64,000 nucleotides of DNA from Cryobacterium sp. Y50 (lineage in GTDB: Bacteria; Actinomycetota; Actinomycetes; Actinomycetales; Microbacteriaceae), in NCBI RefSeq assembly GCF_002929805.1, contig NZ_PJJM01000089.1, positions 20,406-84,405 on the forward strand, given 5' to 3'. Position 1 is the first letter of the stretch. Every line of letters starts with the position of its first letter. Of this stretch, positions 4,346 to 63,225 are shown piece by piece. The notes beneath the pieces are model-generated. The model was not told the DNA's origin. It saw only the letters and a program-made list of their open reading frames with translations, and searched no databases. The position numbers and the translations under genes were made by a program.

Positions 4346-5401
4346 TCAGGGAACGAGATCGGCTGAGCCGGTACCGTTGGGCACCAACTGGAACCAGGTA
4401 TTGCCCGGTGCCAGCCGAATTGTCACGCCGTTGCCGTCGATGAAGCGGATCGGTGAGGTCTGGGCATCCTTGCTCCAGGTGGCCGCTAGGGTCTTGCCAC
4501 CGGACGAGATCGACGCTTCACCGGAGGCGATCAACTCGGTCTTGGGGATACTGTTGGAGACGGTCACATCGACCCGCAACACGACCACGTTGGTGGCCTT
4601 GAGTTGGGCACCCTCGGGGGTCAGGTCGGGCACACCGTCCTGAGCGCGCAGGTAGGCGGCCGCCTCGGCGTTCCAGGTCCAGCTGCGGGCGCTGGAGTTG
4701 GAGAACTGGGTGTTGATCACCGAAATCGGCGTGCCGTCCGTAGAAGCGGATGCCGCGGCGAGGGTGGCTGCGTAGGCGTACTGCTGGGCGGGCGGGGTGA
4801 CGGAGGCATTGCGGTTGACGAATTCCGACGCGGCGAGGATCACGTTGTGCGGGGCCGACGTAGCGGAAGACCGCGAGAACAAGCCGGTCGTGTCATAGTC
4901 GAAGATGGCACTGATCTGGCCAGTCACGTTCATCGCGTCGACGAATCGCTGCTGGCCACCGGAATAGGCGACCAGACCGCCGAACGGCGCAATAATGTCA
5001 GGGTCCATCGGCCGGATCGACCGCACCGGGCCGAGCTGATCGGGAATACTCGACTGCCAGACCGCGACATAGCGGGTAATGCCGCCCTCGACCAGTTCTT
5101 CGAACACGAGGTCGGTGCGGTCGATGGCAACCTGCGGCCGGGCCACAACGTGGTTGTCAATCTTGGCTGCCAGTGACGGGTGGGCCAACGAGCCGCCTTC
5201 GACGCTCTGCCCGGTCAGCGGTGCGATCTCGGTCGCCGCCGGGGCGACATAGTCAGAGGTCCAAGCCGTGCTGGTCGGTGCCGAGGAGGGGGTCGGGGTA
5301 CTGCCGGTGCACGCGCTCAGGAGCAGTGCCGGTAATACGAGGGCGAGCAGCCCCGCGGCCTGAAGCGGTCGAGCGGTACGGGCCGTATTTTTCATAGTCA
5401 C
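4346..5401 (-). CDS. DUF3048 domain lipoprotein (YerB-like)
   Basis: 351-residue predicted lipoprotein. The signal peptide (about residues 1-30) ends in the lipobox LLSAC, followed by a Ser/Thr/Pro-rich linker. The DUF3048 core has IAPLTG, AAKIDNHVVARPQ, FEELVEGGITRYVAVWQS, GPVRSIRPMD and a C-terminal part with TWSKDAQTSPIRFIDGNG. It should be anchored outside the membrane. Molecular function is unknown; relatives such as YerB are cell-envelope proteins. It is leftward like cspA and groL but separated from cspA by a strong terminator, so it probably has its own promoter. Confidence 0.85.
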   Translation of the reverse strand: MTMKNTARTARPLQAAGLLALVLPALLLSACTGSTPTPSSAPTSTAWTSDYVAPAATEIAPLTGQSVEGGSLAHPSLAAKIDNHVVARPQVAIDRTDLVFEELVEGGITRYVAVWQSSIPDQLGPVRSIRPMDPDIIAPFGGLVAYSGGQQRFVDAMNVTGQISAIFDYDTTGLFSRSSATSAPHNVILAASEFVNRNASVTPPAQQYAYAATLAAASASTDGTPISVINTQFSNSSARSWTWNAEAAAYLRAQDGVPDLTPEGAQLKATNVVVLRVDVTVSNSIPKTELIASGEASISSGGKTLAATWSKDAQTSPIRFIDGNGVTIRLAPGNTWFQLVPNGTGSADLVP

Positions 5402-5408
5402 CGGTAAA

Positions 5409-6596: not shown

Positions 6597-6869
6597 CTAG
6601 TCGCGGGTGGGCAGCGAACGACTGGCGCGTGCCTCGGATCGGACGGAACGCATCCGCTGCAATCGTTTCACCAGCATGGGATCAAAGGCCAACGCCAACG
6701 GCGAGTCAACCAGTGCGCCCAATAATTGATAGTACCGGGCGGTCGACAGGCTGAAGGTGGCCCGGATGGCCTCCTCCTTGGCGCCGACGTGCCGCCACCA
6801 TTGCCGTTCGAAGGCGAGCACGGCCTGGTCGCGTTCGCTCAACTCGGTTGTCGGGGCGTGTTCACTCAT
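6597..6869 (-). CDS. DUF3263 family small protein
   Basis: 90-residue protein typical of DUF3263: LSERDQAVLAFERQWW near the start and the helix-turn-helix-like stretch IRATFSLSTARYYQLLGALV in the middle, then a basic tail. The conserved core reads like a small DNA-binding helix-turn-helix, but its function is not established. It is the first gene of the leftward DUF3263/LytR_C pair. Confidence 0.88.
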   Translation of the reverse strand: MSEHAPTTELSERDQAVLAFERQWWRHVGAKEEAIRATFSLSTARYYQLLGALVDSPLALAFDPMLVKRLQRMRSVRSEARASRSLPTRD

Positions 6870-7456: not shown

Positions 7457-8104
7457 GTGTCGACGACGGAGGCGGTTGCCAACCCGGAAGTGGCAGGTTC
7501 GGTCGGAGCGAGTTCTGGTGTTCCCGGCCCGGACACGACCGGTTCCACAGCGGATACCGCGGCGGTCTTCAAAGCTGTCGCTGAACGGCGCAGTCACTCC
7601 AGGGTGACGGCGTTCGCCCCCAGCCGGGCGGAGTTACTTCCGCTCGTGGCGGCGTCCGCGCGGGTGGCCGATCATGGCGCGTTGCGTCCGTGGCGGCTGC
7701 TCGAGTTGCGCGGTGACGCTCGGGAGCGGCTCGGAGCGGCGTTTGTGGCGGCATCCGCTTGTGAAGGGCTCGAGGCGATCAAGCTGGCCGGCAAGCCGCT
7801 GCGCGCACCGCTGCTGATCGCGATCGTCGCATCGCGGCAGGCGAACTGGAAGGTTGCTGGCTGGGAACAGGATGCGGCGGCTGCGGGCGTCGCGCACCTG
7901 CTCACGCTGCTGCTCGAAAACGCTGGCTGGGGGGCGATGTGGCGCACCGGGCCACTGGTTCGATCGGCGCCGGTGCGGGTGCTGCATCGCCTTGCCGACG
8001 GGGAAGAGCTGCTCGGCTGGCTCTACGTTGGGGGAATTCCCGAGGAGTCGAAGCCGGGCGTGCGGCTGTCGATTGATCCAGAGGAGTTTCTGGGGGTGTT
8101 GTAG
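7457..8104 (+). CDS. Nitroreductase family protein
   Basis: 215-residue FMN-dependent nitroreductase-like protein. After a disordered Ser/Thr/Gly-rich leader of about 35 residues, conserved pieces are RRSHSRVTAFAPSRAELLPL, ADHGALRPWRLLELRG and LLLENAGWGAMWRTG, resembling the YdjA-type putative NAD(P)H nitroreductases. The start is a GTG four bases after msrB. The substrate is unknown. Confidence 0.8.
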   Translation: MSTTEAVANPEVAGSVGASSGVPGPDTTGSTADTAAVFKAVAERRSHSRVTAFAPSRAELLPLVAASARVADHGALRPWRLLELRGDARERLGAAFVAASACEGLEAIKLAGKPLRAPLLIAIVASRQANWKVAGWEQDAAAAGVAHLLTLLLENAGWGAMWRTGPLVRSAPVRVLHRLADGEELLGWLYVGGIPEESKPGVRLSIDPEEFLGVL

Positions 8105-8222: not shown

Positions 8223-9221
8223 TTATGCGCGGGCATGACCGGGGCGACGCCAGCGCACCGCCGCGATGACGACGGCCACCAGCGCGAGCGCGGTTCCGGC
8301 CAAGGTTGCCACGCCGAGCGGATGCCCCGCGGTGGGCGCGAACAGATCCAGCGCGAGGGCGCAGAGTAGCTGGCCGGCGACGATGCACAGGCCGAGCATG
8401 AGTACGCCGGTGGTGCGCACGACGAGTGCAGCCCCGGCGATGAAGATGCAGCCGATGAGTCCGCCGGTGTAGAGCCACGGGTTGTCCGGCAGGTCGAGGG
8501 CGAAACCGACCAGCAGACCGTGCACGAACGCCGCGAGTACGAGCGCGACGGATCCGGTGAGGAAGTTCAGAAAAGTTGCCGTGAGTGCGCTCTGCGCGGT
8601 GACCCGCACCTGACCGTTCACGGCCTGCTGCCAGCCCTGGGCGATGCCCGCCACGAGGGGCAGCACGAGCAGCCAGAGCGCGTCGATTCCGCGCAATTCG
8701 CCGCTCACCGTGCAGGCGACGGCGACCAGAGCGAGCACCGCGCCGACGATTTTGGAGGCGTGCAGCGGTCGGCGCCCACCCGGGCCGATGCCAAACCGGT
8801 CCATGAGTACGCCGCTCACGGTCTGGCCGGCCACGACTGCGACGGTGAACAGGGCGATGCCAAGTGGCGCGGCAACGAGGCCCTGCGACAGCACGAACAG
8901 GGCGCCGGCCAGGCCGCCGAACAGGTGCCACCAGGACAGGTGCTTTGCTTTCACACCGCGGGCAACGAGTTGGAGGCCACGGCGTCCACGACGGAAGACG
9001 ACGAGGCCGAGGCTGAGAACGACCAGCCCGGAGCCGAAGGAGATGACGGCGGCGGTGAATCCGTCACCGATTTGATGCCCCAGTTCGCCATTCACCCGCG
9101 ATTGCACGGCATACATGGCCCCGATCAGCACCGAAAACAGGAGCGCCAGCCAGATCGGCACAGCGGATGCCGCGGGCGCGGTCGGAGCATCCGCTCGGGT
9201 TTGTGCGTTGGCTGGGTTCAC
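8223..9221 (-). CDS. DMT superfamily transporter (DUF606/YdcZ type)
   Basis: 332-residue integral membrane protein with about ten hydrophobic helices in two homologous halves. The repeat signature can be seen twice (AMYAVQSRVNGELG near residue 35 and IAQGWQQAVNGQVRV near 195), typical of the DUF606 branch of drug/metabolite transporters. Substrate is unknown. The gene stands alone, leftward, flanked on both sides by GGGCCC-box repeats. Confidence 0.85.
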   Translation of the reverse strand: MNPANAQTRADAPTAPAASAVPIWLALLFSVLIGAMYAVQSRVNGELGHQIGDGFTAAVISFGSGLVVLSLGLVVFRRGRRGLQLVARGVKAKHLSWWHLFGGLAGALFVLSQGLVAAPLGIALFTVAVVAGQTVSGVLMDRFGIGPGGRRPLHASKIVGAVLALVAVACTVSGELRGIDALWLLVLPLVAGIAQGWQQAVNGQVRVTAQSALTATFLNFLTGSVALVLAAFVHGLLVGFALDLPDNPWLYTGGLIGCIFIAGAALVVRTTGVLMLGLCIVAGQLLCALALDLFAPTAGHPLGVATLAGTALALVAVVIAAVRWRRPGHARA

Positions 9222-9372: not shown

Positions 9373-10968
9373 TCAGGCGGCGCGCATCTCGATTTCGCCG
9401 GGGGCGGCACCGTCGCTGCCGAAGACCAGGCGGCGGTTGGCAATCTTGTCAGTGAAGAAGCGATCGTGGCTGACCACCACGACAGCGCCGGGAAAGTGCA
9501 CGAGGGCGCGTTCCATCACCTGAGTGCTCGACATGTCCAGATGGTTGGTCGGTTCGTCGAGCAGCAGCACCGAAGCTCCGGAGAGCAGGCACTGCGCCAT
9601 CGCGACGCGGGCGCGCTGACCGCCCGAGAGATTGCCAATCTTCTGCTTGAGGTCGGCCTCGCTGAACTGGAACATAGTCAGAAAACGGTTGACCGATTTC
9701 TTGGTCGCGGTGAGGGCGAGGCTGCCGGGCATGGCATTGACGGCATGACTGACAGTGTCATTTTCGTCGAGTTCGGTGAGAATCTGGTTGTACGACACAA
9801 CGCCGGCGCCGCTGGCCCAGGCGACCGAACCGTGGTCGGCCGTCTCCTCGCCGGTGAGCACCCGCAGCAGGGTCGTCTTTCCGCTGCCGTTGCTGCCAAG
9901 CACGACGATGCGGTTGCCACGGCGCACCTCGAAACTGAGGTTTTCGAACAGCACCTTGTCGCCGAAACTCTTGGCCAGGCCGTCGACCCGGCAGAGGACG
10001 TCCTTGACGGGCAGGTTGCCGTAAATCTCGGTGATGATCTGGTCGACCGGGCGCGGTGTGCGCGATTTCTTGATGTGCGCGAGCTGGTTGCCGAGCTGGC
10101 GGCTCTCGGCCTTAGCGGCCTCGCGGCGGTCGGCGATGCCCTCGGCCTCGAAGGCGAGCAGCTCGGATTCGTGCACGAACTGTGCCTCGAGGGTCTTAAG
10201 CCGAAACTGCTTCTGCACGATGTACTCGCCGAAGCTGCCGGGGTATTCGTGTAGGTGAAAGTTCTCGACCTCGATGATGCGGGTGACGACAGCGTCAAGA
10301 AACTTACGGTCGTGCGAGACGACGATGGCAGCACCCTTGAAGCTCTTGAACCAGGCTTCGAGCCACTCCACGCCGGCCACGTCGAGAAAGTTGGTGGGCT
10401 CGTCGAGCAGCAGCACGTCGGGCGCTTCGAGCACGATCTTGGCCAGGGCAGCCCGGTTGCGCCAGCCGCCGGAGAGCTCATCGATCGCACAGACGCGGTG
10501 CGCCTGATCGAATCCGAGGGTGGTCAACGCGGTGTCGATGTGCCGCTTGTAGTCCCAACCGTCCAGCCGGTCCATCTCCTCGAACAGCTCGCCCTGCCGC
10601 CCGATCAGCAGGTCGAGTTCAGCGCTGGCCGACGAGTCGAGCGCGATTGCCGCGTCAATCGCGGCGAGCTCGGCCTCGACCGCCTTCACGGCAACGAAGA
10701 GTTCGTCGAGCACCTCGGTGATGGTCTGCTCGCCGTTGAGTTCGGAGAACTGGGAGAAATAGCCAACCCGAATGCCATCTTCGAGGGTGACCTCGCCGGT
10801 GTCCGGCGAGACCTGGTCGAGAATCAGCTTGAGAATGGTGGACTTGCCGGAGCCGTTCTTGCCGATCAGGCCGACCCGGTCGCCGGGTTCGAGGCGAAAG
10901 AATGCCTCCCGCAGAATCTGGGTGTTCTCAAAGCGGATGCTGACATCGTTCAGCCGGATCAGGCTCAT
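9373..10968 (-). CDS. ABC-F family ATPase
   Basis: 531 residues with two ABC ATPase domains in one chain and no membrane segment, the ABC-F architecture. Walker A motifs are GKNGSGKST (first half) and GSNGSGKTT (second half); signature motifs are LSGGWRNRA and LSGGQRARV, each followed by LLLDEPTN. The two halves are joined by a charged linker. ABC-F proteins bind the ribosomal E site and modulate translation; some protect against ribosome-targeting antibiotics. The lack of a long linker or C-terminal extension favours a housekeeping translation factor, but resistance cannot be excluded. Strong Shine-Dalgarno GGGAGGGAA. Confidence 0.93.
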   Translation of the reverse strand: MSLIRLNDVSIRFENTQILREAFFRLEPGDRVGLIGKNGSGKSTILKLILDQVSPDTGEVTLEDGIRVGYFSQFSELNGEQTITEVLDELFVAVKAVEAELAAIDAAIALDSSASAELDLLIGRQGELFEEMDRLDGWDYKRHIDTALTTLGFDQAHRVCAIDELSGGWRNRAALAKIVLEAPDVLLLDEPTNFLDVAGVEWLEAWFKSFKGAAIVVSHDRKFLDAVVTRIIEVENFHLHEYPGSFGEYIVQKQFRLKTLEAQFVHESELLAFEAEGIADRREAAKAESRQLGNQLAHIKKSRTPRPVDQIITEIYGNLPVKDVLCRVDGLAKSFGDKVLFENLSFEVRRGNRIVVLGSNGSGKTTLLRVLTGEETADHGSVAWASGAGVVSYNQILTELDENDTVSHAVNAMPGSLALTATKKSVNRFLTMFQFSEADLKQKIGNLSGGQRARVAMAQCLLSGASVLLLDEPTNHLDMSSTQVMERALVHFPGAVVVVSHDRFFTDKIANRRLVFGSDGAAPGEIEMRAA

Positions 10969-11242: not shown

Positions 11243-11278
11243 AAGCGGATGCGACGGCTCGAGCAGCAGCATCCGCTT
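11243..11278. terminator. Hairpin formed by an inverted pair of the AGCGGATGC word
   Basis: AAGCGGATGC (11243-11252) and GCATCCGCTT (11269-11278) form a perfect 10-bp stem; the 16-base loop holds the inner palindrome GCTCGAGC. It begins 6 bases past the stop of the DsbA-like gene and probably ends its transcript, although no U-run follows. Confidence 0.6.
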
Positions 11279-12198: not shown

Positions 12199-12415
12199 AA
12201 AGATCGCTTTCGAGAAGTGAGCGCGCGCGTCAGCGCACCTTTGGAATATTAGATCCCCTGACTGGGAATCGGCCAAACGGGGCGGACGGGCGATAACCGG
12301 CACCGGGACATCCGTCGTGTAATAATAAAAGCGTCGTGTGCTTCGGCGCCCGGCGGACAAATCCTATTCACAACGGATCGTCCGGCACGTTCCTGCCGGT
12401 GAAGGAGTAATAATC
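12199..12415. promoter_or_regulatory. Divergent promoter region, DsbA-like gene and ugpC
   Basis: 217-base gap between divergent genes. On the plus strand TAATAAT at 12320-12326 is a good -10 candidate about 90 bases before the ATPase start, but I do not see a convincing -35. The ATPase ribosome-binding site GAAGGAG lies just before its ATG. Confidence 0.35.
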
Positions 12416-13513
12416 ATGGCTTCAGTGACCTTTGACAAAGCAACTCGGCTCTACCCGGGTTCCACCCGACCGGCTGTTGACCAGCTCGATCTGCAGGTCG
12501 CCGATGGCGAATTCCTGGTTCTGGTCGGCCCGTCCGGCTGTGGAAAGTCCACCTCGCTGCGTATGCTCGCCGGCCTCGAAGAGGTCAACGACGGCAACAT
12601 CCTCATCGGCGACCGCAACGTGACGGATGTTCCGCCGAAAGACCGCGACATCGCCATGGTCTTTCAGAACTACGCGCTGTACCCGCACATGACGGTCGCC
12701 GAGAACATGGGCTTCGCGCTCAAGATCGCCGGAATCAACAAGGACGAGCGTGCCGCCCGCGTACTCGAGGCCGCCAAGCTGCTCGACCTGGAGCCCTACC
12801 TCAGCCGCAAGCCGAAGGCCCTCTCCGGTGGCCAGCGTCAGCGCGTCGCCATGGGCCGCGCGATCGTGCGTCAGCCGCAGGTGTTCCTGATGGATGAGCC
12901 GCTCTCCAACCTCGACGCCAAGCTGCGTGTGCAGACGCGTACGCAGATCGCTTCCTTGCAGCGTCGACTCGGCGTCACGACCGTCTATGTGACCCACGAC
13001 CAGACCGAGGCGCTCACCATGGGCGACCGGATTGCGGTACTCAAGGACGGCATCCTGCAGCAGGTCGGTTCGCCCCGCGACCTGTACGCGAAGCCGCAGA
13101 ACGTGTTCGTGGCCGGATTCATCGGCAGCCCCGCAATGAACCTGTTCCTCGCGGACACCGTCGACGGTGGCATCAAGTTCGGCACCGCGACCGTCCCCGT
13201 GCAGCGCGACACCCTCGCTGGCTCGACCGGCAAGAAGGTCACCGTGGGAATTCGTCCGGAAGATATTCAGATGTCGTCGACCGCCGGAGACGGACTGCAG
13301 ATTGAGGTCGATCTGGTCGAAGAGCTCGGCGCCGACGGCTACCTCTACGGTCACTCCACGATCGAGGGCAAGCGCACCGACATCGTCGCTCGCGTCGACG
13401 GCCGCTCCCACCCGAACGCCGGCGAGACGGTGTACCTCACAGCTACTCCGAACCACCTGCACGTGTTCGACGCTGAAACCGGTCTGCGCCTCGGCGGCGC
13501 CGTCACCGACTAG
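12416..13513 (+). CDS. ugpC: Sugar ABC transporter ATP-binding subunit (UgpC/MsiK type)
   Basis: 365-residue CUT1-family ATPase. It has Walker A GPSGCGKST, Q-loop VFQNYALYPHMTV, signature LSGGQRQRV, Walker B VFLMDEPLSNLDAKLR and the H-loop THD. The C-terminal third is a regulatory OB/TOBE domain (GIRPEDIQM). No permease or binding protein lies nearby. That fits MsiK-like ATPases of actinobacteria, which energise several sugar importers from one stand-alone gene. The substrate cannot be read from the sequence, so the ugp name is only the family label. Start is the ATG at 12416 with GAAGGAG upstream. A UUCG-loop terminator follows. Confidence 0.93.
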   Translation: MASVTFDKATRLYPGSTRPAVDQLDLQVADGEFLVLVGPSGCGKSTSLRMLAGLEEVNDGNILIGDRNVTDVPPKDRDIAMVFQNYALYPHMTVAENMGFALKIAGINKDERAARVLEAAKLLDLEPYLSRKPKALSGGQRQRVAMGRAIVRQPQVFLMDEPLSNLDAKLRVQTRTQIASLQRRLGVTTVYVTHDQTEALTMGDRIAVLKDGILQQVGSPRDLYAKPQNVFVAGFIGSPAMNLFLADTVDGGIKFGTATVPVQRDTLAGSTGKKVTVGIRPEDIQMSSTAGDGLQIEVDLVEELGADGYLYGHSTIEGKRTDIVARVDGRSHPNAGETVYLTATPNHLHVFDAETGLRLGGAVTD

Positions 13514-44902: not shown

Positions 44903-44915
44903 GCGCTGTACTGGG

Positions 44916-49014: not shown

Positions 49015-49080
49015 GGGGGTCCTCCGGAAGGGTAGGGGTGGGTCATGCGGAACAGGGCCGTAAGCATCCGCTTCCCAGCT

Positions 49081-51847: not shown

Positions 51848-52966
<1,119 letters not shown>

Positions 52967-53732: not shown

Positions 53733-53734
53733 GG

Positions 53735-54403
53735 CTAGTCCTTTGCTGTTGGATCGAAGCGGTGCGCGAACGCCACGTCATTGACGTGCATCGTGATGGT
53801 GACGGTATAGCTGCCCGTGTTTTGGTCGAGCGAGACCGAGCCGGGCAGCGCGTCGGCAAAACCGTCGAGCGTGCTGAGCGCGTTCAGCCAGGCCGGAATA
53901 TCGGGCAGAACGGCGCTTCTTGCGGTGAACGACACGGTCGCCACCCGCAGTCCCTGCAGCGGCGCGGTCGCCTGGGTGTATGCCGCGAGCGGGGTCGCCG
54001 AATCCACCTGCACCGTGCCGATCGCGACACTGCTTGGCAGTGTGCCCTGCACGGCGTCGAGGTAGCCCTTCCAATCAATTTCGGTCGAGGCGCCCAGCTG
54101 CTGCGCCGCCCGGCTCAGCGCGATCTGGTTCTGCAACGACCGTACGACGAAGTACTTGCTCTGCTCGGTCAGCAGGGTTGCGGTGCGGGCCTGCTCGGTG
54201 GCAAGTTTGGTCTGCGCGGTCAGAGCGAGCGCCGTAGACGCGCCGACTCCGAGGGCGACGAGCACGGCGATGCCCGTGACGCCAAGGGTGAGGCTGCGCC
54301 GTTGCCGCTGACCGCGCCGCTCGTCCCGCACCTCCGGCGGCAGCAGGTCGACCCGTCGGTCGCCGCCGATGACGAGCACGTCGTCGTTGTGCGCGCGCCT
54401 CAT
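53735..54403 (-). CDS. pilN: Type IV pilus assembly protein PilN-like
   Basis: 222 residues. The cytoplasmic N-terminus contains VDLLPPEVRDERR, matching the PilN segment that binds PilM. One transmembrane helix (about 41-62) and a periplasm-facing-type coiled coil and globular domain follow. Overlaps the pilM stop by four bases and pilO by near contact. Confidence 0.85.
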   Translation of the reverse strand: MRRAHNDDVLVIGGDRRVDLLPPEVRDERRGQRQRRSLTLGVTGIAVLVALGVGASTALALTAQTKLATEQARTATLLTEQSKYFVVRSLQNQIALSRAAQQLGASTEIDWKGYLDAVQGTLPSSVAIGTVQVDSATPLAAYTQATAPLQGLRVATVSFTARSAVLPDIPAWLNALSTLDGFADALPGSVSLDQNTGSYTVTITMHVNDVAFAHRFDPTAKD

Positions 54404-55515
54404 GCTGCACGCCCGAGAGCGAGGCCGAGGGCTACGGTGTAGGCGGAGCCGCTCAGCCGAAGTGCTTCAGCATCGATACCGGATGCGAGACCCACCGTTG
54501 CGAGCGGATCCCCCTGGGTCACGCCGAGGCGGGTCAATTTCGAGACCGCCTCCGGCAGGCCGGGAAGCTCGGCTCCCCCACCGCTGAGCACGATGGCCGA
54601 CACTGGGTCGCTTGGTCGGGTATTGGCGAAATAGCTGAGCGTGTTGACGATGCTGCCCAGCTGTTCGTGCATGGTATCCGCGATGATGCGGGCGGCGGCC
54701 TCATCGACCGGGCCGAAACCGGTGCGCAGGCCGCGGGACCCGGCGACATCGGGGAAATTTGGCACGGCGATGTCGGACGACTCGATCGCGGCCAGCAGAC
54801 CGACGCGACATTTCAGCTGCTCGGCAGTGGCAGCATCCGTCTGCAAACCGTCGATGAGGGCCTGGGTGAGATCGTTGGCTCCGGTGGGGATGATGCGCAC
54901 GAACTGGGGCACACCGTTCTGGGCGATCACGATGCTCGTGGTCGTCGCCCCGAGATCGATGACGGCCACGACGCCGTCGATGCCGGAGCGGGTGACCAGC
55001 AGGCGGCTGACCGCAAACGGGATCAGATCGACGTCGGTGGTTCTGAGCCCGGCCAAGCGCACAGCGGAGACGTTGGCGACGACGGCAGCCTTGACGGCCG
55101 CGATGAGCAGCCCGTTCACTGTCGGGCCGTGCTCGGTCGTCGATTCCGAAATGGGATAGAAGTCGAGCAGCGCGTCGGCGACGGGCACCGGCAGCAGGTC
55201 CTGCACCTCGAACGGGAGCGCCTGTCGAATGCGCGCGAGCGACATCTTGGGCACGCTCAAGTCGCGGGCCAGCACGCGTTGATTACCCATGCCGAGCACC
55301 ACCTGGCGAGAACGGAACCCGCCGCCCGACCACAGCGCTTTGAGCGCGGCGGCCACAGTGTGCGGCTCGATCACTTCGCCGGCGATGACGGCTCCGGGCG
55401 GCAGCGATACCTCGTGATAGCGCTGCAGCATCGGCCGTGGCTTGCCGGGATTGCGCACCTCGACGGCACGCAGGTGCGCAGTGCCGATGTCTATTCCGAC
55501 GATGCTCTGAGCCAC
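54400..55515 (-). CDS. pilM: Type IV pilus assembly ATPase PilM
   Basis: 371 residues from a GTG with AAGGAG upstream. Actin-like fold: phosphate-1 motif IVGIDIGTAHLRAVEV at the N-terminus, VVAVIDLGATTTSIVI (phosphate-2) and SAIVLSGGGAELPGLPEAV (adenosine) in the C-terminal half. It binds the PilN tail in the cytoplasm. First of the pilMNO set. Confidence 0.92.
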   Translation of the reverse strand: MAQSIVGIDIGTAHLRAVEVRNPGKPRPMLQRYHEVSLPPGAVIAGEVIEPHTVAAALKALWSGGGFRSRQVVLGMGNQRVLARDLSVPKMSLARIRQALPFEVQDLLPVPVADALLDFYPISESTTEHGPTVNGLLIAAVKAAVVANVSAVRLAGLRTTDVDLIPFAVSRLLVTRSGIDGVVAVIDLGATTTSIVIAQNGVPQFVRIIPTGANDLTQALIDGLQTDAATAEQLKCRVGLLAAIESSDIAVPNFPDVAGSRGLRTGFGPVDEAAARIIADTMHEQLGSIVNTLSYFANTRPSDPVSAIVLSGGGAELPGLPEAVSKLTRLGVTQGDPLATVGLASGIDAEALRLSGSAYTVALGLALGRAA

Positions 55516-55579
55516 GAGAAGTGCTCCTTATAAATAGGGATGGGTGAACTGACGAGTGGATGCTGGGCGCGGCCGATCA

Positions 55580-57415
55580 TTACGGAACCGTCGCTCCCCG
55601 CGCGGTGAACGCCGAACTCACTTCAACCAGCAGGTTCACGCTGTAGCGGGCCGACACCGGCGAGAGGAATTTGGGCGGCGCAATGTAGCGAAAGCGCGGA
55701 TCGTAATTGTAGTTCTTGCTGTACCCGTTGGCGCCGCCGCTGTTGGTCAATCGCACGGAGCCGCGATATTTCTGGGCGAGCGACCCGTTGATGGTCAGCA
55801 CGCCCTGATTGCCGCCGCGGTCGTAGTTCTGCACCTGAATGGTGTGGTCGAGCGAGAGCATGGCCGCGTCGATGCGCCGATTTTCAGGCAGGATGGCGCC
55901 ACCTTCACCGGGGCCAACCCCCGGGCAAATCACCCCATGCGTACTGTCGCAGTACGGGTTCCAAACCCAGATAGCATTCTGCGCGACCAGCCCGAGCACG
56001 TCGGTGGATGCATCCGAATAAATGATGTCGCCGGTGACGTAGAGAAAGTTGTCGGTGGCGATGGTCATCGTGCCGTCCAGGGTTCCCTTGACGAAGGCAT
56101 CACCCTTGCGGCAGTCATAGGACCGGGCGCTTGGCGCGGTTTCATGCGTCACGGGAAAGCCGATACCGTTGCCGACGGAGCAGGTGGCCGCGCTTTGGCC
56201 GCTCGGCCAGACGGTGCTGCTCGTATAGTTCGGATCAGTGACGACGCCCGGAACGCTCTGGACGAAGAGCAGGTTCGCGTTCAACACCGGGACGGTGGCG
56301 CCGGCCGTTGAGCCGAGCTGGCCATTGGCCATTCCCGGTAGGCCGCAGGCCGCCGGCGTGCTGCCCGCCGTCGCCGGGTCCCCGACGATGCGGGTCTTCT
56401 TGGTCCAGGGCGAACGGATGGTCATGGTGCCCGAGCTGTTCAGTACGATGCTGGTCGGGCCGGTATAGAGGCAACCCGGAGCGTCGATACCGGCGTCCGT
56501 CCGGGTTTCCTGCTTGAGCTGCATGTTGGTAGCCGGCATCGCGATGACCGGGCTGGTCGTTGGCTGGCCGCCGTTGAATACTTGACCGGAGCAGGCGCCG
56601 CCGTTCGAGTTCTGCTTGAGGTAATTCGACCCGGTCGCACCCGGGCTTCCGGTGGTGACCATGCCATTGAACGTGGCGTTACAGATACGGATGGTGTCGT
56701 TGGAGTGCGCCGGACCGTTGATGACGTCGCTGCTGCCGAAGGCGATGTCGCCACACGGTATTGAGCGACCCGCCCAGGCATAGGTGTTAGCGCAGGCGGT
56801 CAGACCGCTCTGTTCCGGATCCTGAATCTCATAGATCGTGAAATAGAGGTAGTCAATGAACCCGTCCTGGCGCAGGTTGGCAACGATGCTGCGGGTGGAG
56901 GTGCCCACCCGGCCGGTGGAGCGGATGCGCAGAACGCCCGAGGCGGAATAGGCAGAGTTGTCGACCTCGTACCGGTAGCTGGCCGTGCCGCCGCTGCCGG
57001 CGACGCTGCCCCAGCCGCCCGCCGCGCCCACGTCGAACGCGGGATTGGGCACCGAGGGAGAAGTCAGAGCGCTTCCGACGCTGAAGGCGGCGGCCGAGTT
57101 GCCGTATTGAAAGTAGGTGTTGTCGTTGACGAGGCGGCTTTCGTAGTCGGCCACCCCGGCATAGGCTGCGGCCATGGCGCCGTTCCAGTTCTGGTCGCTC
57201 GAGGCTTTGAGGCTGCCGCTGACCGAGAACGTCATCGCGGTGGCGACGAGGGTGAGCAGCAGCAGGCCGAGGCCGATCACGACGACGAGGGCGGCGCCGC
57301 GTTCATCTGGTTCACGGCTGATGCGGCGACGGAAGACGCTCAGCAACGCGAATCGCTTTCGGGGCGTCCAGGTGCTTCGGCGCCGGGAGGGGCGCCAGAA
57401 CGGGTAGACGCTCAT
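55580..57415 (-). CDS. Large pilus-associated protein, PilX-like N-terminus
   Basis: 611 residues from ATG 57415, overlapping the pilW-like stop by four bases. A basic N-terminus and one transmembrane helix (about 41-65, GAALVVVIGLGLLLLTLVATAMTFSVSGSL) resemble PilX N-terminal regions, without the classical G/FxxxE cleavage site. The remaining ~540 residues are a large Ser/Thr/Gly/Asn-rich exported domain with several cysteines. I infer a minor pilin or pilus-tip component; the big domain could be adhesive. No homologous fold is recognised in the C-terminal part. Confidence 0.72.
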   Translation of the reverse strand: MSVYPFWRPSRRRSTWTPRKRFALLSVFRRRISREPDERGAALVVVIGLGLLLLTLVATAMTFSVSGSLKASSDQNWNGAMAAAYAGVADYESRLVNDNTYFQYGNSAAAFSVGSALTSPSVPNPAFDVGAAGGWGSVAGSGGTASYRYEVDNSAYSASGVLRIRSTGRVGTSTRSIVANLRQDGFIDYLYFTIYEIQDPEQSGLTACANTYAWAGRSIPCGDIAFGSSDVINGPAHSNDTIRICNATFNGMVTTGSPGATGSNYLKQNSNGGACSGQVFNGGQPTTSPVIAMPATNMQLKQETRTDAGIDAPGCLYTGPTSIVLNSSGTMTIRSPWTKKTRIVGDPATAGSTPAACGLPGMANGQLGSTAGATVPVLNANLLFVQSVPGVVTDPNYTSSTVWPSGQSAATCSVGNGIGFPVTHETAPSARSYDCRKGDAFVKGTLDGTMTIATDNFLYVTGDIIYSDASTDVLGLVAQNAIWVWNPYCDSTHGVICPGVGPGEGGAILPENRRIDAAMLSLDHTIQVQNYDRGGNQGVLTINGSLAQKYRGSVRLTNSGGANGYSKNYNYDPRFRYIAPPKFLSPVSARYSVNLLVEVSSAFTARGATVP

Positions 57416-58092
57416 GACGCTTCCGCCGCGAGGGCAACGTTGGGCATGCCGACGGTATTGTGCAGGGTGACCGCGCTGCGGGCATCCGTCAGGGTGGCCT
57501 GCACCGTGAGATTCACCGAAACGGATGCGACGCTGCGCAGCTCGGTACTGGTGAGCAGCGTGCCGTCGCCGCCCGAGCCGAGCAGAGGCAGGCCGGCGGC
57601 GTCGCGGTAGCCGAACAGGAAGGTGCCGGGGTCGCCCGGCGCCACGGTTTCGGCGATGATGCGCGACGATTCCGGCTCGCCGGAGAACTCGTAATACCCA
57701 CCGCTGAGGGCGGTCGCGGCCCAGCGGGTTTGGACAAGTCGCCGCTCGGCGTCGAGGGACAGACGAATCCTTACCGGTTGCTGGGTCGGCATGCCGAGGT
57801 TGACGTAGGCATACAGGGTCACCGCTTCCGGAGTCGCTTCGATGAGGGCCGGGTCGGGCAGCGGATGTCCAGACACCGGATTCTCGGTGGCCGCGCGGAT
57901 GACCCGGGCGACCTCGTTCATGCCGTTGGACACCTGCCGGGTGTTGGCTGTGAGCAGCTTTGCTTGGCCGAGCGAACGGGAGGCGCTCAGATAGAGGCTC
58001 GAGATCATGGTCATGAACACGCCGAGCAGCAGCATGGCCACGAGCAGCTCGACCAGCGACAGACCGGCGTCGTTTCTCCGGGGCGGCATCAT
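57412..58092 (-). CDS. Minor pilin, PilW-like prepilin
   Basis: 226 residues with a class III prepilin signal: RRNDAG^LSLVELLVAMLLLGVF, where Glu follows the cleavage Gly by five. The hydrophobic N-terminal helix leads to a beta-rich domain (GLPLLGSGGDGTLLTSTELRSVASVSVNLTV). It is overlapped at both ends by neighbours (ATGA junctions), so the three minor-pilin genes form one coupled block. Confidence 0.82.
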   Translation of the reverse strand: MMPPRRNDAGLSLVELLVAMLLLGVFMTMISSLYLSASRSLGQAKLLTANTRQVSNGMNEVARVIRAATENPVSGHPLPDPALIEATPEAVTLYAYVNLGMPTQQPVRIRLSLDAERRLVQTRWAATALSGGYYEFSGEPESSRIIAETVAPGDPGTFLFGYRDAAGLPLLGSGGDGTLLTSTELRSVASVSVNLTVQATLTDARSAVTLHNTVGMPNVALAAEAS

Positions 58093-59459
58093 GGCGCCAC
58101 AACTCGCGGATCAAGGGTGACAACGTCGCCGGCGACCACGCCCCGGGTGAGTACGGCGAGGTTTACAGCGGGCACGGGCGTCGTCTCGGAACCGCTGGCG
58201 GCACCAGAGAAGAAGGTCCAGGAGCCGAACGGCAGGCCGAGTTGGGTCGTCGCGTCGGCGGGGAGCTGCCCGAAGTTGTAGGTCGTGGCGACTGCGCAGC
58301 CCGGATCCCCGCTGCCGGCCGGCGCGATCGTCGACTCGGCCCGCAGGAATTGCCCGGCCAGGCCGGTCACGGACAGTACGCCGAGCGGCACGTCGGCCGT
58401 GGCACTGCCGCCGGGAAGCGTACCAACGGTGACGGCTGCGGTGCCGATTGCCCCGTCGGCGGCGGGGGTTGTCCAGGCTGCCGGGTCAACCGATACGCAG
58501 CCGGGGGCGCTCGGGGTCGCCGCGATGAAACGGCCAGCGAAGACTTCATAGCCGAACGGGTGCAGCCGAAAGGTCTGCACGTTCGCGTTGCTCGGGTTGA
58601 CGGCCACGTAGGGCTCGTAGGTGCTGCGAAAGGTGGTGCTCAGGTTGTTCGGCAGCAGCGTCGTGCCCTCCGAATAGTTGGTGCCGTAGTGGGCCGTGAC
58701 GGTTCCGGCCAGATCGTAGGCGAAGGCGACGGATGCCGCTCCTCCGGCCGCGACGCCGACCGTCTGCGCCCCGCTGGTCGCCTGATCTTTGTCGACGAAG
58801 TTGGGGCGGGAGACCGTGACGTCATAGGTGCCGGGCTTGACCTTGAGCAGGTAGCTGCACCCCTCGGCGTCCGTTGCCGCTGGGGCCGCGGTGAGAGTGG
58901 CAGCACCGTTGGGGATGGCGCCCGGCACTGCGGAGATGGCGACACCGGCGGCGCCGCTGCCGGAGGCGGTGAGCACCGAGACAAGGATGGTGCCGAGTGC
59001 CGGATCGTTGATGCGGCTGCCGGGGGCGAGTGCACTGTCGGCGCGCACGACCGGAGTCGTGGCGCGCATGCTGTCCCAGGTGACGGTGACGTTGACGCGG
59101 CGGTAACGCAGCTGGCCACCGCCGGAACCGCAGTTGCCGTCGGCGCCGGTAGTGGTTTCCCAGTCGGTGGAGCGGTGCAGGGTGAAGGTCGTGCCGTTTT
59201 GTACGACCGTGCTGGTGCTTTCGAGCACGGCGAATACGTTGCCGGCCGAGCGCGCCAGGTCGATCTCCTGCGCGGCCAGGTTGACGGCCGATTCGCGGGA
59301 CCGAGCGTCGTTGCCCAGATAGAGGGAGGTGACGAGTCCGTAGCCAACGCCGACGGCGATGATGGCGAAGATCAACATGGCCACGAGCACTTCGATGAGG
59401 CTGACGCCTTCATCGTTTTGGGTGAGGTGGCCCAGGCTGAGCCGTTTTGGAGCGTGCAC
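58089..59459 (-). CDS. Minor pilin, PilV-like prepilin with large C-terminal domain
   Basis: 456 residues from GTG 59459, preceded by a perfect AAGGAGG; the open frame to 59540 adds nothing conserved. Prepilin site NDEG^VSLIEVLVAMLIFAIIAVG near residue 20. The ~430 residues that follow are beta-rich and include a carboxypeptidase-regulatory-like stretch (EGCSYLLKVKPGTYDVTVSRPNFVDKDQ). That is much longer than ordinary PilV (~150-200), suggesting an exposed, possibly adhesive, tip subunit. Confidence 0.8.
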   Translation of the reverse strand: MHAPKRLSLGHLTQNDEGVSLIEVLVAMLIFAIIAVGVGYGLVTSLYLGNDARSRESAVNLAAQEIDLARSAGNVFAVLESTSTVVQNGTTFTLHRSTDWETTTGADGNCGSGGGQLRYRRVNVTVTWDSMRATTPVVRADSALAPGSRINDPALGTILVSVLTASGSGAAGVAISAVPGAIPNGAATLTAAPAATDAEGCSYLLKVKPGTYDVTVSRPNFVDKDQATSGAQTVGVAAGGAASVAFAYDLAGTVTAHYGTNYSEGTTLLPNNLSTTFRSTYEPYVAVNPSNANVQTFRLHPFGYEVFAGRFIAATPSAPGCVSVDPAAWTTPAADGAIGTAAVTVGTLPGGSATADVPLGVLSVTGLAGQFLRAESTIAPAGSGDPGCAVATTYNFGQLPADATTQLGLPFGSWTFFSGAASGSETTPVPAVNLAVLTRGVVAGDVVTLDPRVVAP

Positions 59460-59562
59460 GAGGGCCTCCTTCGCGAGAGTCAGGTCGAGGTGTTGCAGAA
59501 CCGGGTGGCCGGGGCGGCCCGAAGGGCGGCCCCGGCTCACGCCGGTGGTGCGCTAGTGCGAC

Positions 59563-60030
59563 TTAGAACGTACAGCCCGTCGGTGCGGCGACGGCTGGGG
59601 TGGCGTCGGCATCAACCTGGGTGATTCCTCCGGCTTCGGTCACGAAGAACTGCTCCGTCGTTCCGCTCGTGGCACCGATGCAGAACGTCGTGGTCGTGAG
59701 GTTCACGTAGCTGATCGTGGTTGTGTTCGGGCCCTTGGTATAGCCGTAGTTGGTTACGCCAGGTATGAGCGCCAGGGCGACCGCGTCATCCGGCATCTCA
59801 CCCGACTCCGTCTGCAGCGCGATGATCGCGGTCTTGGCGTTGGCGAGGTCGCTCTTGACGCTCGCGTCCTTGGCGTTGTTCTGCACACCCAGGTACACCG
59901 GAATGGCGATGGCGGCGAGGATGCCGATGATGATCACAACGACGAGCAGCTCGATCAGCGTGAACCCTTTCTGGTTCTCGGTGAAACGTGCGCGGCGCTG
60001 GTTCAGGGAAGCGAGCAGGCGAATAATCAT
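59563..60030 (-). CDS. pilA: Type IV major pilin PilA
   Basis: 155 residues. Prepilin cleavage site QKG^FTLIELLVVVIIIGILAAIA with the conserved Glu5, then an amphipathic helix and a small C-terminal domain with two cysteines (FCIGATS and TGCTF) that could form the typical D-loop disulfide. The long leader of ~22 residues is basic. A 300-base gap separates it from pilC, so it may have its own promoter, as expected of the most abundant subunit. Confidence 0.93.
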   Translation of the reverse strand: MIIRLLASLNQRRARFTENQKGFTLIELLVVVIIIGILAAIAIPVYLGVQNNAKDASVKSDLANAKTAIIALQTESGEMPDDAVALALIPGVTNYGYTKGPNTTTISYVNLTTTTFCIGATSGTTEQFFVTEAGGITQVDADATPAVAAPTGCTF

Positions 60031-60180
60031 GGTGTGTCCATTCGGGTTGGAAATGAGCGGTGCAATTTGTGAGCCGGGTAAGGACTCCTGGTACGGGATT
60101 TCTGACGTGCTTTTCTGGCGACCGAGGGTACGATCGGAGCTTCAGATTAGGGGGGCAATTTTCTTCTGCACGACCCACAA

Positions 60181-60212
60181 GTGAGGGTGATTTGGGTATT
60201 ACCCACCCCCAC
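60181..60212. promoter_or_regulatory. Inverted repeat upstream of pilA
   Basis: GTGAGGGTG (60181-60189) pairs with CACCCCCAC (60204-60212) with one mismatch; TGGGTA and TACCCA form a nested alternative inside. It lies about 150 bases upstream of the pilA start and may be an operator or leader hairpin. Confidence 0.4.
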
Positions 60213-60265
60213 AACGGGATGGCTGCCGGCCGCGCGGGTACGCCAAAAGCCCCACACCGCGGGCC

Positions 60266-60296
60266 GAGAAGCCGGCACGCTCTACGCCGGCGTCTC
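60266..60296 (-). terminator. Hairpin downstream of pilC
   Basis: GAGAAGCCGGC pairs with GCCGGCGTCTC (one internal A-G mismatch) around a nine-base loop. It begins 36 bases after the pilC stop. A palindromic GTCTCGAGAC adjoins it. Confidence 0.6.
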
Positions 60297-60331
60297 GAGA
60301 CTCACGAGACGGGGTCGAGGGCGGTGCTGGC

Positions 60332-61561
60332 TTACTTGATCATGCTGGCGATGCTGAAGATGGGCAGGTAGAGGGCGATCACCATGCCACCGATAACGAC
60401 GCCCAGAAAGGCGATCAGGAGCGGCTCAATCATGGCGGTGAGCTGCTCCGTCGCCGACTGCACCTCCTGGTCGTAGAAGTCAGCGATTTTGTCGAGCATC
60501 AACTCGAGCGTTCCGGCATCCTCTCCTACGGCGATCATCTGCACGACCATGGCCGGAAAGACCGGGTGTTCGAGCAGTGGCTCCGAGATGGACTTTCCGC
60601 GCCGCACCGCCTCGCCGACCTCGGTCAGGGCATTCTCGATCATCCAGTTGCCGCTGGTCTCCCCTACGATCTTCAGCGCCTGCAGAATGGGAACTCCGGC
60701 GCCGAGCATGTTGGCGAAGTTTCGACTGAACCGCGCCACCGCGATCTTCTTCTGCAGCAGCCCGAACACCGGCAGTTTCAGCCGCAACGGGTCGAGCCGG
60801 CGGCGCACGGCCTCGGTGTGTTTGTTGCGCCGCCACCAGAGCAAGAAACCGACGCCGAGCACCGCGCCGATCGGTACGACGTAGATCATCGATTCCGAGA
60901 GGGTGACGAGTAGCTGGGTGGGCAGCGGCAGGGCGCCGCCCAGGCCGGTAAACATGTCCTGAAAGATGGGCACGATGAAGATCAGCATGATCAGCACGGC
61001 GGCGAACGACATCGCCAGCACGATCACCGGGTAGGTCATGGCTGATTTGATCGTTCCGCGCAGCTTGACCTCCTTCTCGAAGTTCTCGGCGATCGAGTTC
61101 AGCGCGCCGTCGAGAAAGCCGCCGGTCTCGCCGGCACGAACCATGTTGACCATGATCGGCGGAAAGGTCAACGGATGCTTCGCGAGCGACTCCGAAATCG
61201 ACTGCCCGGCTTCGACGTCGTCACGTACCAGGGCGAGCACCGCGGCGAGAGGTTTACTCGCGGTCTGCTCGGTGAGGATGCCGAGGGCGCGCAGCAGCGA
61301 CAGTCCGGCCCGGATCATGGTGGCGAACTGCCGGCTCATGATGGCGAGGTCCTTCAGGCGCACTCCGCGCGAGAAGGCCGCCAGGGTCAGCGACCGTCCG
61401 AGCCCGGTTCCCGGCACGACCGGGGCGATCGAAATAGGCGCGATACCCAGGGCGTTCAGCCGGGAGGCGACCTGCGCTTCACTCAGGGCATCGAGTTGCC
61501 CCTTGACGTTCTTACCCGCGGTGTCTCGCCCGGTGTAAGAGAAAGCGAGGGCGTTGGACAT
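60332..61561 (-). CDS. pilC: Type IV pilus platform protein PilC (GspF family)
   Basis: 409 residues. Two GspF domains, each with RQFATMIRAGLSLLRALGILTEQ and SRNFANMLGAGVPILQALKIVGETSGN, and three to four transmembrane helices around them (about 168-195, 215-240, 375-400). It is the inner-membrane platform on which the ATPases act. Overlaps the pilT stop by one base. Confidence 0.94.
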   Translation of the reverse strand: MSNALAFSYTGRDTAGKNVKGQLDALSEAQVASRLNALGIAPISIAPVVPGTGLGRSLTLAAFSRGVRLKDLAIMSRQFATMIRAGLSLLRALGILTEQTASKPLAAVLALVRDDVEAGQSISESLAKHPLTFPPIMVNMVRAGETGGFLDGALNSIAENFEKEVKLRGTIKSAMTYPVIVLAMSFAAVLIMLIFIVPIFQDMFTGLGGALPLPTQLLVTLSESMIYVVPIGAVLGVGFLLWWRRNKHTEAVRRRLDPLRLKLPVFGLLQKKIAVARFSRNFANMLGAGVPILQALKIVGETSGNWMIENALTEVGEAVRRGKSISEPLLEHPVFPAMVVQMIAVGEDAGTLELMLDKIADFYDQEVQSATEQLTAMIEPLLIAFLGVVIGGMVIALYLPIFSIASMIK

Positions 61562-63225
61562 CAGCTCGCCGACCGGGCGAGGTCAGCGGTCGCGCCGGGC
61601 AAGCCGGCCGCCGCTTCACGAAAGCTGGTCTGCCTAAAGCTGGGCTCGACAAACGGCTTCTCCGCAAAACCAACAGGAGCGAATCCCACCGGAGCGGATC
61701 CACTCGCAGGGAAACCGGCTTCCACGAAACCCGAATCGGCGGCGAACGAGAAGCCGCCGGTCTGCCGCGGCGCGTCGCTGCGATGAATGAGTTTCTCGAG
61801 TCCTACGGCGTTCTGGGCCTTCTCTAGCGCGGCCTGGCGCGTGACCTGGCCGGTATTCACGAGCTCGGCGAGGTGTTGATCCAGCGTGAACATGCCACGT
61901 TCCCGCCCGGTTTGCATCATCGATTCGATCTGGTGGGTCTTGCCCTCGCGAATAAGATTCGCGATCGCCGGAGTGGTCACGAGAATCTCGGTGGCCGCCA
62001 CGCGCCCGATGCCCGTCGCCGACTTGACCAGGGTCTGACAAATCACGCCCTGCAGCGTCTGGGCCAGTTGCGCGCGCACCTGGTTTTGCTGGTGCGGCGG
62101 AAAAACATCCACGATGCGGTCGACGGTCTGGGCAGCGCTCTGCGTGTGCAGCGTCGCGAAGACGAGATGCCCGGTCTCGGCCGCGGTCAGCGCCACCTGA
62201 ATGGTCTCGAGATCTCGCAGCTCTCCGATCAGGATCACGTCGGGATCCTGCCGCAACACGTGCTTCAAAGCGGATGCGAAACTGGCCGTATCCGCTCCCA
62301 CCTCGCGCTGGGTCACTACCGACTTCTTGTGCGCGTGCAGAAACTCGATCGGATCCTCGACGGTCACGATATGGTCGGCTCGCGTGCTGTTAACGAGGTC
62401 GACGAGGGCGGCGAGGGTAGTCGATTTTCCCGAGCCGGTCGGCCCCGCCACGAGCACGAGTCCGCGGGGAAGCTGTGCGAACGAGGCCACGGATTCGGGA
62501 ATACCGAGCGATTTGAGATCCTGAATCTCGCTCGGAATGAGTCGAAAGGCCGCCCCGGGCGTTCCCCGCTGCTGGTGCACATTGACCCGAAACCGGCTGG
62601 CGTTCAGGCTCGCGCCGTTTGCGTCCGCATCACTCGTGGCCGTGCCGCTCGCAGCCGCACCGCTCGTAGCTGCGCCGTGCAGCGTGTAGGCGAAGTCCAG
62701 CTCGTGATCGCGGTCGAAGATCTCCTGCTGCTCGCCAGAGAGGATGCTGCGGATTGCCCGGCTCGCCTTCTCCGCCGACCAGACCGGCGCATTGTCGATC
62801 GAGCCCAGTTTCCCGTCCCGGCGGATCTTCGGTGGGGACCCAACGGTGACGTGCAGGTCGGATCCGTGCTGCACGACGACACATTCGAGGGCCGCGAGCA
62901 GGTCAGCGTCGATCGGGCCGAGGGCCTCATCGGCCGGCTCGAGCGGGTGCACCGGTTGAGCCAGGTCGGTAGAGGATGACGGTAGCGCCTCGTCGATCGG
63001 CGCGGGAAAGACGGGGTGCTGCTCTGGCACAGAGCCAGGCGTGTCGTCGGCGAGGAACCGAGTGCGGGAACGGACCTGGGGTAGCACCTGCACCTCGCCC
63101 GGGCGGCTCTCGTCTAGCGCATCGCGCGCTGACACGGGGGGCCAGTCGACGGCGTCGCTCGCCGACGGGGTCTCGTGCCTGCCCGCATTGTCGGTCGGCG
63201 ACAGGGGGATTTTCGGGTCGTCCAT
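61561..63225 (-). CDS. pilT: Type IV pilus retraction-type ATPase PilT
   Basis: 554 residues. Core: GSDLHVTVGSPPKIRRDGKL, Walker A GPTGSGKSTT, Walker B DVILIGELRDLETI, the His box HLVFATLHTQSAAQTVDRIVDVFPPHQQNQVRAQL (in pieces) and the PilT-type AIANLIREGKTHQIESMMQTG. That last motif (AIRNLIRE in classical PilT) favours retraction over PilB. It is ~200 residues longer than usual: a disordered ~105-residue N-terminus, an Ala/Ser/Thr insertion before ASRFRVNVHQQRG, and a ~70-residue Phe/Pro/Ala-rich tail. Confidence 0.9.
   Translation of the reverse strand: MDDPKIPLSPTDNAGRHETPSASDAVDWPPVSARDALDESRPGEVQVLPQVRSRTRFLADDTPGSVPEQHPVFPAPIDEALPSSSTDLAQPVHPLEPADEALGPIDADLLAALECVVVQHGSDLHVTVGSPPKIRRDGKLGSIDNAPVWSAEKASRAIRSILSGEQQEIFDRDHELDFAYTLHGAATSGAAASGTATSDADANGASLNASRFRVNVHQQRGTPGAAFRLIPSEIQDLKSLGIPESVASFAQLPRGLVLVAGPTGSGKSTTLAALVDLVNSTRADHIVTVEDPIEFLHAHKKSVVTQREVGADTASFASALKHVLRQDPDVILIGELRDLETIQVALTAAETGHLVFATLHTQSAAQTVDRIVDVFPPHQQNQVRAQLAQTLQGVICQTLVKSATGIGRVAATEILVTTPAIANLIREGKTHQIESMMQTGRERGMFTLDQHLAELVNTGQVTRQAALEKAQNAVGLEKLIHRSDAPRQTGGFSFAADSGFVEAGFPASGSAPVGFAPVGFAEKPFVEPSFRQTSFREAAAGLPGATADLARSAS

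Follow-up and report, generated by a model that had tools for sequence, protein, structure and literature searches.

We describe here a nine-base word, AGCGGATGC, and its possible role as a DNA uptake sequence (DUS) in a 64,000-nucleotide stretch of the Cryobacterium sp. Y50 genome (contig NZ_PJJM01000089.1, positions 20,406 to 84,405; hereafter the window, with coordinates counted from its first base). Together with a sister form, AACGGATGC, the word occurs 37 times in the window (27 and 10 copies, respectively), and by exact count 13 of the 27 copies of AGCGGATGC lie on the + strand and 14 on the − strand. The original prediction, made by eye from the letters, had listed 24 of these positions, every one of them exact, and overlooked those at 2431, 29253 and 40665; it had also judged both strands about equally represented and a second form, 'ACGGATGC', frequent. 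This second form is genuine and consists mainly of AACGGATGC. The window further carries a type IV pilus cluster (53055–63225, −) with Pfam matches to PilO, PilM_2, N_methyl and T2SSE, which is a candidate uptake filament. The cluster encodes PilO, a protein in the PilN position without a Pfam match, PilM, an 847-amino-acid open reading frame (ORF) without a match, a prepilin-like protein, a pilin, a protein that we take to be PilC (homologues were found in relatives) and a T2SSE-type ATPase.

Sites were assigned to genes with a simple codon model of our own, so that 'between genes' is approximate. By this model AGCGGATGC lies in genes at 2431–2439 (−), 4745–4753 (+), 8317–8325 (+), 10932–10940 (+), 15888–15896 (−), 18592–18600 (−), 23410–23418 (−), 24613–24621 (+), 26038–26046 (+), 27895–27903 (−), 29253–29261 (−) and 30097–30105 (+), and in a predicted gene at 7751–7759 (−), while AACGGATGC lies in genes at 2183–2191 (+), 13853–13861 (+), 27510–27518 (+) and 29104–29112 (−). 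Single intergenic copies are found at 6650–6658 (−) and 20239–20247 (+) for AGCGGATGC and at 19619–19627 (−) for AACGGATGC. Three further intergenic sites are paired: an inverted pair of AGCGGATGC at 9162–9195 (9162 +, 9187 −), the inverted pair AAGCGGATGC/GCATCCGCTT at 11243–11278 near a tRNA gene (words at 11244 + and 11269 −), and a copy of AGCGGATGC at 23976 (+) that faces a near copy (23976–24019). The second of these had been described as a perfect hairpin, and 11243–11252 and 11269–11278 do form a perfect 10-bp inverted pair; the pairing proposed for 23976 and 24010 falls within 18-nucleotide arms (23978–23995/24002–24019) that match at 83%. The word had also been thought absent from all ribosomal protein genes, which does not hold, as the copy at 40665 is inside rpsC. 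The ribosomal block (32738–45400) is still word-poor, with 2 copies in 12.7 kb.

The word is in excess beyond chance. Dinucleotide shuffles of the window contained 1.08 copies of AGCGGATGC on average and 5 at most, and an order-3 Markov model of the window predicts 1.07, compared to the 27 observed. Among over-represented 9-mers of the window it ranks first (z 22); the next (z 9.9) is an overlapping word, and no unrelated 9-mer comes close. AACGGATGC is present in 10 copies where 0.73 are expected. The complete assembly of 105 contigs (4.4 Mb) contains 1,207 copies of AGCGGATGC (612 + 595, again nearly even between strands), about ten times the 122 (61 + 61) of the reversed-word control, so that genome-wide counts are far above expectation, as the original prediction implied. 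In 421 kb sampled from this assembly (the window and 20 further stretches), we found 111 copies of AGCGGATGC (5.8 expected) and 72 of AACGGATGC (3.7 expected); the remaining 26 single-base variants of AGCGGATGC were near expectation or up by no more than about sixfold, chiefly at positions 3 and 9. Because AACGGATGC is as enriched as AGCGGATGC, we define the word as A(A/G)CGGATGC. AGCGGATGC differs from its own complement, GCATCCGCT, and is therefore non-palindromic. Separately, the most over-represented 12-mers of the window (CTCAGGCTCAGG) likely come from an EPEPEP-containing protein encoded at 51848–52966 (−).

The 26 Cryobacterium genomes that we compared (25 named and our own) fall into two groups: 18 carry 931–1,494 copies and 8 carry 197–279, with none between. 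A tree built on the fusA locus unites the 18 word-rich genomes in a single clade (100/100) and places the 8 word-poor genomes elsewhere, as two separate lineages. Of the 199 Microbacteriaceae genomes compared, 22 carry AGCGGATGC at no less than 3.5 times the control and in more than 100 copies. These belong to genera that we label g1, g3, g4, g6, g7, g9, g55, g58, g70, g73, g77 and g82, of which g73 is the word-richest (1,609 and 1,555 copies). In an order-wide draw of 258 genomes, searched for AGCGGATGC only, the 239 genomes from other families show no comparable excess. By our reading of the counts, the highest among them is 253 (control 254), and G474 (21 vs 5) is the sole genome with more than twice its control.

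Within the family the word has variants. The core CGGATGC is common to A(A/G)CGGATGC of g1, GAGCGGATGCG of g73, ARCGGATGCC (A(A/G)CGGATGCC) of g3 and CGGATGCCGC of g79, and a weaker variant, ACGGATGCC, is seen in g58 and in the word-poor Cryobacterium; AGGATCCG of g5 and GGAGGCGCG of g36 do not share this core. All were called from small samples of 60–421 kb, and 20–60 kb of g34, g51, g18 and g78, or of the small-genome genera g11 and g16, yielded no strong word. We compared variant words with shuffles of synonymous codons within genes, which preserve the protein and the codon usage, and they exceeded these shuffles in G142 (12 and 18 vs 1.2 and 1.7), G004 (13 and 16 vs 1.6 and 3.2) and G035 (8 and 17 vs 2.4 and 4.2). 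By analogy, the variant words resemble the DUS dialects of Neisseriaceae, which are described as read by the minor pilin ComP (PMC3630211, PMC7371117, PMC1939737).

Other repeated strings were seen along the way. G008 (g9; L118–L121) has, beside AGCGGATGC, a second frequent string around GCGGGTTGAGGAGGC, with 9- and 10-mers occurring 8–13 times in 80 kb. The dispersed repeat of G051 (g52; L197–L199), around TGAGGAGCC..TACTGA, is longer and thereby differs from the short words found in other genera; some 11 copies were counted in 53 kb. Runs of C or G are over-represented in G072 (g73; L113–L117, L164–L174), with C 10-mers at 134 vs 0.4 expected, and these could be real tracts or an assembly effect. 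In the window itself, an msiK RNA motif (RF01747) lies at 12356–12413 (+), at the start of the ORF at 12338–13513.

Orthologous loci aligned from word-rich and word-poor Cryobacterium cover 12 of the 37 window sites, with each site counted once per genome. In other word-rich species, words are kept as words in 59 of 78 cases, whereas 9-mers at 11–30 bp from the words are identical in 114 of 417 cases and background 9-mers, many of which are within ribosomal and elongation-factor genes, in 28,228 of 59,573. In word-poor species, 0 of 12 aligned cases is a word. For AGCGGATGC, the word is found in the single word-rich relative aligned at 33090–33098 (−, adenylate kinase gene); in 1/1 word-rich and 0/1 word-poor relatives at 40665–40673 (+, inside rpsC, the gene for ribosomal protein S3); in 1/2 word-rich relatives at 45478–45486 (−, intergenic, beside tuf); in 5/8 word-rich and 0/3 word-poor at 49064–49072 (−, the fusA–rpsG gap); and in 7/8 word-rich and 0/2 word-poor at 50713–50721 (−, in a predicted gene). 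Two sites in the pilus cluster are kept throughout the word-rich relatives, namely 56920–56928 (+; 8/8, and 0/1 word-poor) and 62269–62277 (+, the ATPase gene; 9/9, and 0/3 word-poor). For AACGGATGC, the word is kept in 7/8 word-rich relatives both at 51505–51513 (−) and at 52917–52925 (−), each in a gene, in 5/8 at 53061–53069 (+, in pilO) and in 7/9 at 61170–61178 (+, in pilC; 0/2 word-poor), and in only 1/8 at 57520–57528 (+, pilus cluster).

We found no strand polarity. With GC skew and gene direction of the stretches as proxies (the position of the origin was not mapped), word strand followed neither in 18 stretches of our own genome, 20 of Cryobacterium sp. PH31-L1 (G201) and 11 of G135 (genus g73), with p from 0.10 to 0.50. 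Half of the neighbouring words in our own genome (77 of 154) lie on the same strand; G201 is unlike it in that adjacent words alternate beyond chance (same strand in 87 of 229, p 0.0003). Pairs of words within 60 bp number 7 in our own genome (4.4 expected) and 13 in G201 (9.1 expected). All 20 are inverted and none is direct (p 2e-6), and 15 are convergent. Such pairs contain 40 of the 421 copies in the two samples, and this share of 9.5% is near the roughly 10% quoted for uptake words in PMC1939737.

The word is also scarce where the DNA looks atypical. We divided the sampled DNA into 10-kb intervals, leaving out any interval with over 100 N and any piece end shorter than 10 kb, and treated codon-model coverage below 0.6 as poor in typical genes. 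Such intervals held 1.57 words per 10 kb in our own genome (n=7), compared to 5.17 elsewhere (n=30; p 0.001), and 1.75 in G201 (n=4), compared to 6.72 elsewhere (n=36; p 0.005), which makes the word three to four times scarcer there. Some low-word stretches encode a resolvase and a type I restriction domain alongside metabolic genes (L078, 1 word in 15 kb), AbiEii-like AAA and SIR2 domains (L083, 1 word in 14 kb), or SdpA and a LytR-type gene (L234, 1 word in 20 kb); in L077 beyond 10 kb, where a single protein was scanned, only an ABC transporter was found. In Neisseriaceae, islands are known to be marked by the absence of the home DUS, as described in PMC7371117.

The alternative that survives best is a Chi-like recombination word, at which a helicase-nuclease would pause during broken-end repair and whose copies selection for repair would keep. 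The copy number and length of the word suit this kind of element, its dialects could track changes in the enzyme, and the reading would fit genus g73 because Chi needs no pilus. The Chi of E. coli is oriented, whereas our word follows neither GC skew nor gene direction (612/595 overall), and this weakens the option, which had been raised in the original prediction. A search for RecC (PF04257), which matched the E. coli control and did not extend to AddAB or AdnAB, found it in none of 19 genomes, and neither inverted pairs nor island depletion would be expected of Chi. We therefore consider a Chi-like role rather improbable. Recognition inside the cell, by a nucleoid, segregation or regulatory protein that binds the chromosomal copies, seems improbable as well. 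The wide spread of the word, with a median gap of 1.3 kb, and its preservation relative to its flanks would suit such a protein. FtsK-orienting polar sequences (KOPS) and chromosome-architecture words are strand-biased, however, and the absence of polarity makes our word unlike them and weakens the earlier suggestion of an architecture motif. An intracellular role is also at odds with the scarcity of the word in typical-gene-poor stretches of the same chromosome, with the eight Cryobacterium that have few copies, and with the location of most copies inside coding frames.

Codon, codon-pair or amino-acid context bias could in principle lift the word as a by-product, and two frames, GCA TCC GCT and ..A GCG GAT GC., hold 100 of the 136 coding copies in our own sample (two of whose 21 pieces, L082 and L084, with at least 100 N, were left out). 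These are the codons to which the original prediction had drawn attention. Yet coding copies are spread over all six frames and others are intergenic, so that a codon-pair preference in one frame does not fully explain them. With two words in two orientations, we observed 33, 48, 29 and 25 copies in our own genome, compared to 3.0, 5.1, 2.0 and 1.5 in synonymous shuffles; 78, 66, 32 and 29, compared to 6.1, 5.8, 2.9 and 1.7, in 400 kb of G201; and 35 and 26, compared to 4.9 and 6.6, in G135. Between roughly one seventeenth and one quarter of the copies thus remain after shuffling, which rules out a by-product of codon usage in these three genomes (the control kept codon usage, not codon pairs). 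Word density per kb between genes is similar to that in genes in our own genome (0.38 and 0.44) and G201 (0.65 and 0.61) and three times higher in G135 (0.96 and 0.32), and sister species differ about fivefold in copies. Taken as a whole, an origin in codon or amino-acid context appears very improbable.

Sites of word-rich species were aligned with DNA of word-poor ones in 685 alignments, which pool several loci per genome and paralogues and are not independent. Of these, 566 have no gap; most of them differ at 1–4 positions, and in 24 the word-poor DNA has a word as well. Because so many alignments are ungapped, the sites seem mostly to arise by substitution, and uptake signal sequences (USS) are likewise described as arising by mutation rather than copying (PMC1626085). 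The flanks of the Cryobacterium words, analysed without the short or masked pieces L166–L169 and L190, show weak preferences only, such as C at position 10 in 57%, and AT-rich flanking tracts were not seen around them. A dispersed mobile or repetitive extragenic palindromic (REP)-like repeat spread by a transposase, which some inverted pairs recall in looking like REP hairpins, is next to negligible as an explanation given the lack of shared flanks (relative entropy outside the nine bases of at most 0.28 bit in Cryobacterium), the ungapped alignments and the position of most copies within genes.

If the word is read at the cell surface, genes for a filament and a channel should accompany it. 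All 26 Cryobacterium have a homologue of the type IV pilus PilC and a ComEC match. PilC from the window has its closest counterpart in Cryobacterium levicorallinum (96% identity), followed by six loci that also come from Cryobacterium, which places the window in this genus of the Microbacteriaceae (Actinomycetota). Of the word-rich Cryobacterium, all but one (17 of 18) also carry a member of a PilC paralogue group, which none of the 8 word-poor genomes has. In our own genome, the paralogue locus (L080, G000:C72:1-20000) encodes PilM, PilO, a prepilin peptidase, a pilin, two T2SSE-type ATPases and a bactofilin. The same locus also encodes a PilW-like prepilin of 237 amino acids, with a GFTLVEL motif recognised by eye and no Pfam match. 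Across the family, ComEC is useless as a discriminator of word-rich genomes, as it is near-universal (195 of 199). Type IV pilus markers are less widespread, with PilM in 97 and a PilD-type peptidase domain in 99 of the 199 genomes.

In genomes that lack a type IV pilus, its place may be taken by a Tad pilus. Micrococcus luteus is described as transforming via Flp/Tad pili and ComEA/ComEC (PMC4322843, PMC6370729), and a Tad route to reading the word is possible for this reason. In a hand-picked set, TadE was found in 13 of 14 enriched genomes without PilM and in 3 of 7 with fewer than 190 copies (p 0.025); this low group includes G017 (68 copies, control 12), and G326, which has TadE and was not searched for PilM, was left out of the 14. 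DNA uptake has been described for two Microbacteriaceae, Rhodoluna and Aurantimicrobium (PMC11577799).

Most of the sequence marks of an uptake sequence are present: an excess that survives codon shuffling, the absence of polarity, inverted pairs, island depletion, conservation and dialects. We consider it probable that A(A/G)CGGATGC, over-represented throughout the genomes of a single Cryobacterium clade, serves as a DNA uptake sequence, a mark by which the import machinery would tell DNA of the cell's own kind. A surface filament, either a type IV or a Tad pilus, would bind DNA that bears the word and would hand it to the ComEC channel. Preferential uptake of such DNA, followed by homologous recombination, could then make and keep copies by molecular drive, so that thousands would accumulate and dialects could drift apart between lineages. 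The uptake reading of the original prediction is thus partly supported: it agrees with these marks, and its link to the pilus holds only in part. A paralogue marks the word-rich Cryobacterium, but the type IV pilus does not predict the word across the 199 genomes, and g73 lacks both markers.

Several observations weigh against an uptake role, the first of them concerning the filament. PilM does not predict enrichment among the 199 Microbacteriaceae (p 0.13 by genome, 0.11 by genus), and the distribution of the PilD-type domain agrees with this result; the family-wide comparison with PilM does not prove that a type IV pilus reads the word, and we count it among the evidence against. Neither marker was matched in g73, in word-rich g58 or in moderately enriched g12, and TadE also occurs in three of the seven low-copy genomes. 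In Cryobacterium, the branch support of the PilC paralogue group is only 84, the word-rich species G223 lacks the paralogue, and because the trait is confined to one clade, its link with the paralogue is one event and not independent support. The scarcity in islands is not uniform either. Three intervals rich in typical genes hold one word each, and word density rises with local G+C (rho 0.63, 0.65), for which reason part of the depletion may be compositional. The conservation test accepts A or G at position 2 of the word but requires identity of the flanks. Gaps at word sites are more frequent than in the background of the alignments to word-poor species (119 of 685, or 17%, vs 14,965 of 237,316, or 6%). 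Close pairs in G135 are mixed in orientation (3 ++, 2 −−, 3 +−, 1 −+; nine vs 2.1 expected). Finally, words show no preference for gene ends and no bias in gene orientation (same/opposite 62/74 in our own genome and 110/96 in G201; p 0.35 and 0.37), and PMC2346458 describes orientation bias in all uptake-sequence genomes studied and gene-end bias in Pasteurellaceae.

Similar to the DUS of Neisseriaceae, as described in the passages of the papers cited above, the Cryobacterium word is short, non-palindromic, on both strands, in genes and in gaps, in some inverted pairs and scarce in islands, and Microbacteriaceae words are lineage-specific with a shared core. The differences are that Cryobacterium belongs to another phylum with another envelope, that its word is unrelated and its uptake preference only predicted, that a type IV pilus was not found in all word-rich genera, and that the words of g5 and g36 do not contain the complete core. 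With the USS of Pasteurellaceae, described as a 9-mer in two clade-specific forms born by mutation (PMC1626085), the word shares its length and its likely origin by substitution, but it is a different word and has no AT-rich flanks, gene-end bias or orientation bias (cf. PMC2346458). It resembles Chi in being short and over-represented, and differs from it in its lack of polarity and of RecC, its inverted pairs and its island depletion. The cyanobacterial highly iterated palindrome HIP1 is also a hugely over-represented short word, though a palindromic one (PMC1939737), unlike ours. Micrococcus luteus is, like Cryobacterium, an actinobacterium, and its Tad-type filament and ComEC point to a possible route for genomes that have no type IV pilus (PMC4322843, PMC6370729); the term 'uptake sequence' is absent from the main text of PMC4322843.

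The cited papers, as far as the passages drawn on extend, describe DNA uptake that is specific for a sequence in just two families, Neisseriaceae and Pasteurellaceae. Among the hits listed for searches of open-licence PMC literature we found no actinobacterial uptake word, which is no proof of absence, and none of the 10 titles listed among 191 matches to the letters of the word concerned uptake words. As far as these searches reach, the putative uptake-sequence system is likely new for Actinomycetota. The wider proposal, that uptake dialects across the Gram-positive Microbacteriaceae, mostly built on CGGATGC and read by type IV or Tad pili, form a third and independently evolved system, the first in Actinomycetota, is one to which we would give an even chance.

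If an uptake role is correct, the word would offer a bench handle, in that it could be added to donor DNA for Microbacteriaceae, and foreign islands could be mapped by the missing word. Cryobacterium, with both word-rich and word-poor species, would suit tests of why uptake words arise. Sequence-specific uptake could also act without a type IV pilus, and self-recognition in transformation would have arisen a further time, in cells whose envelope is of another type.

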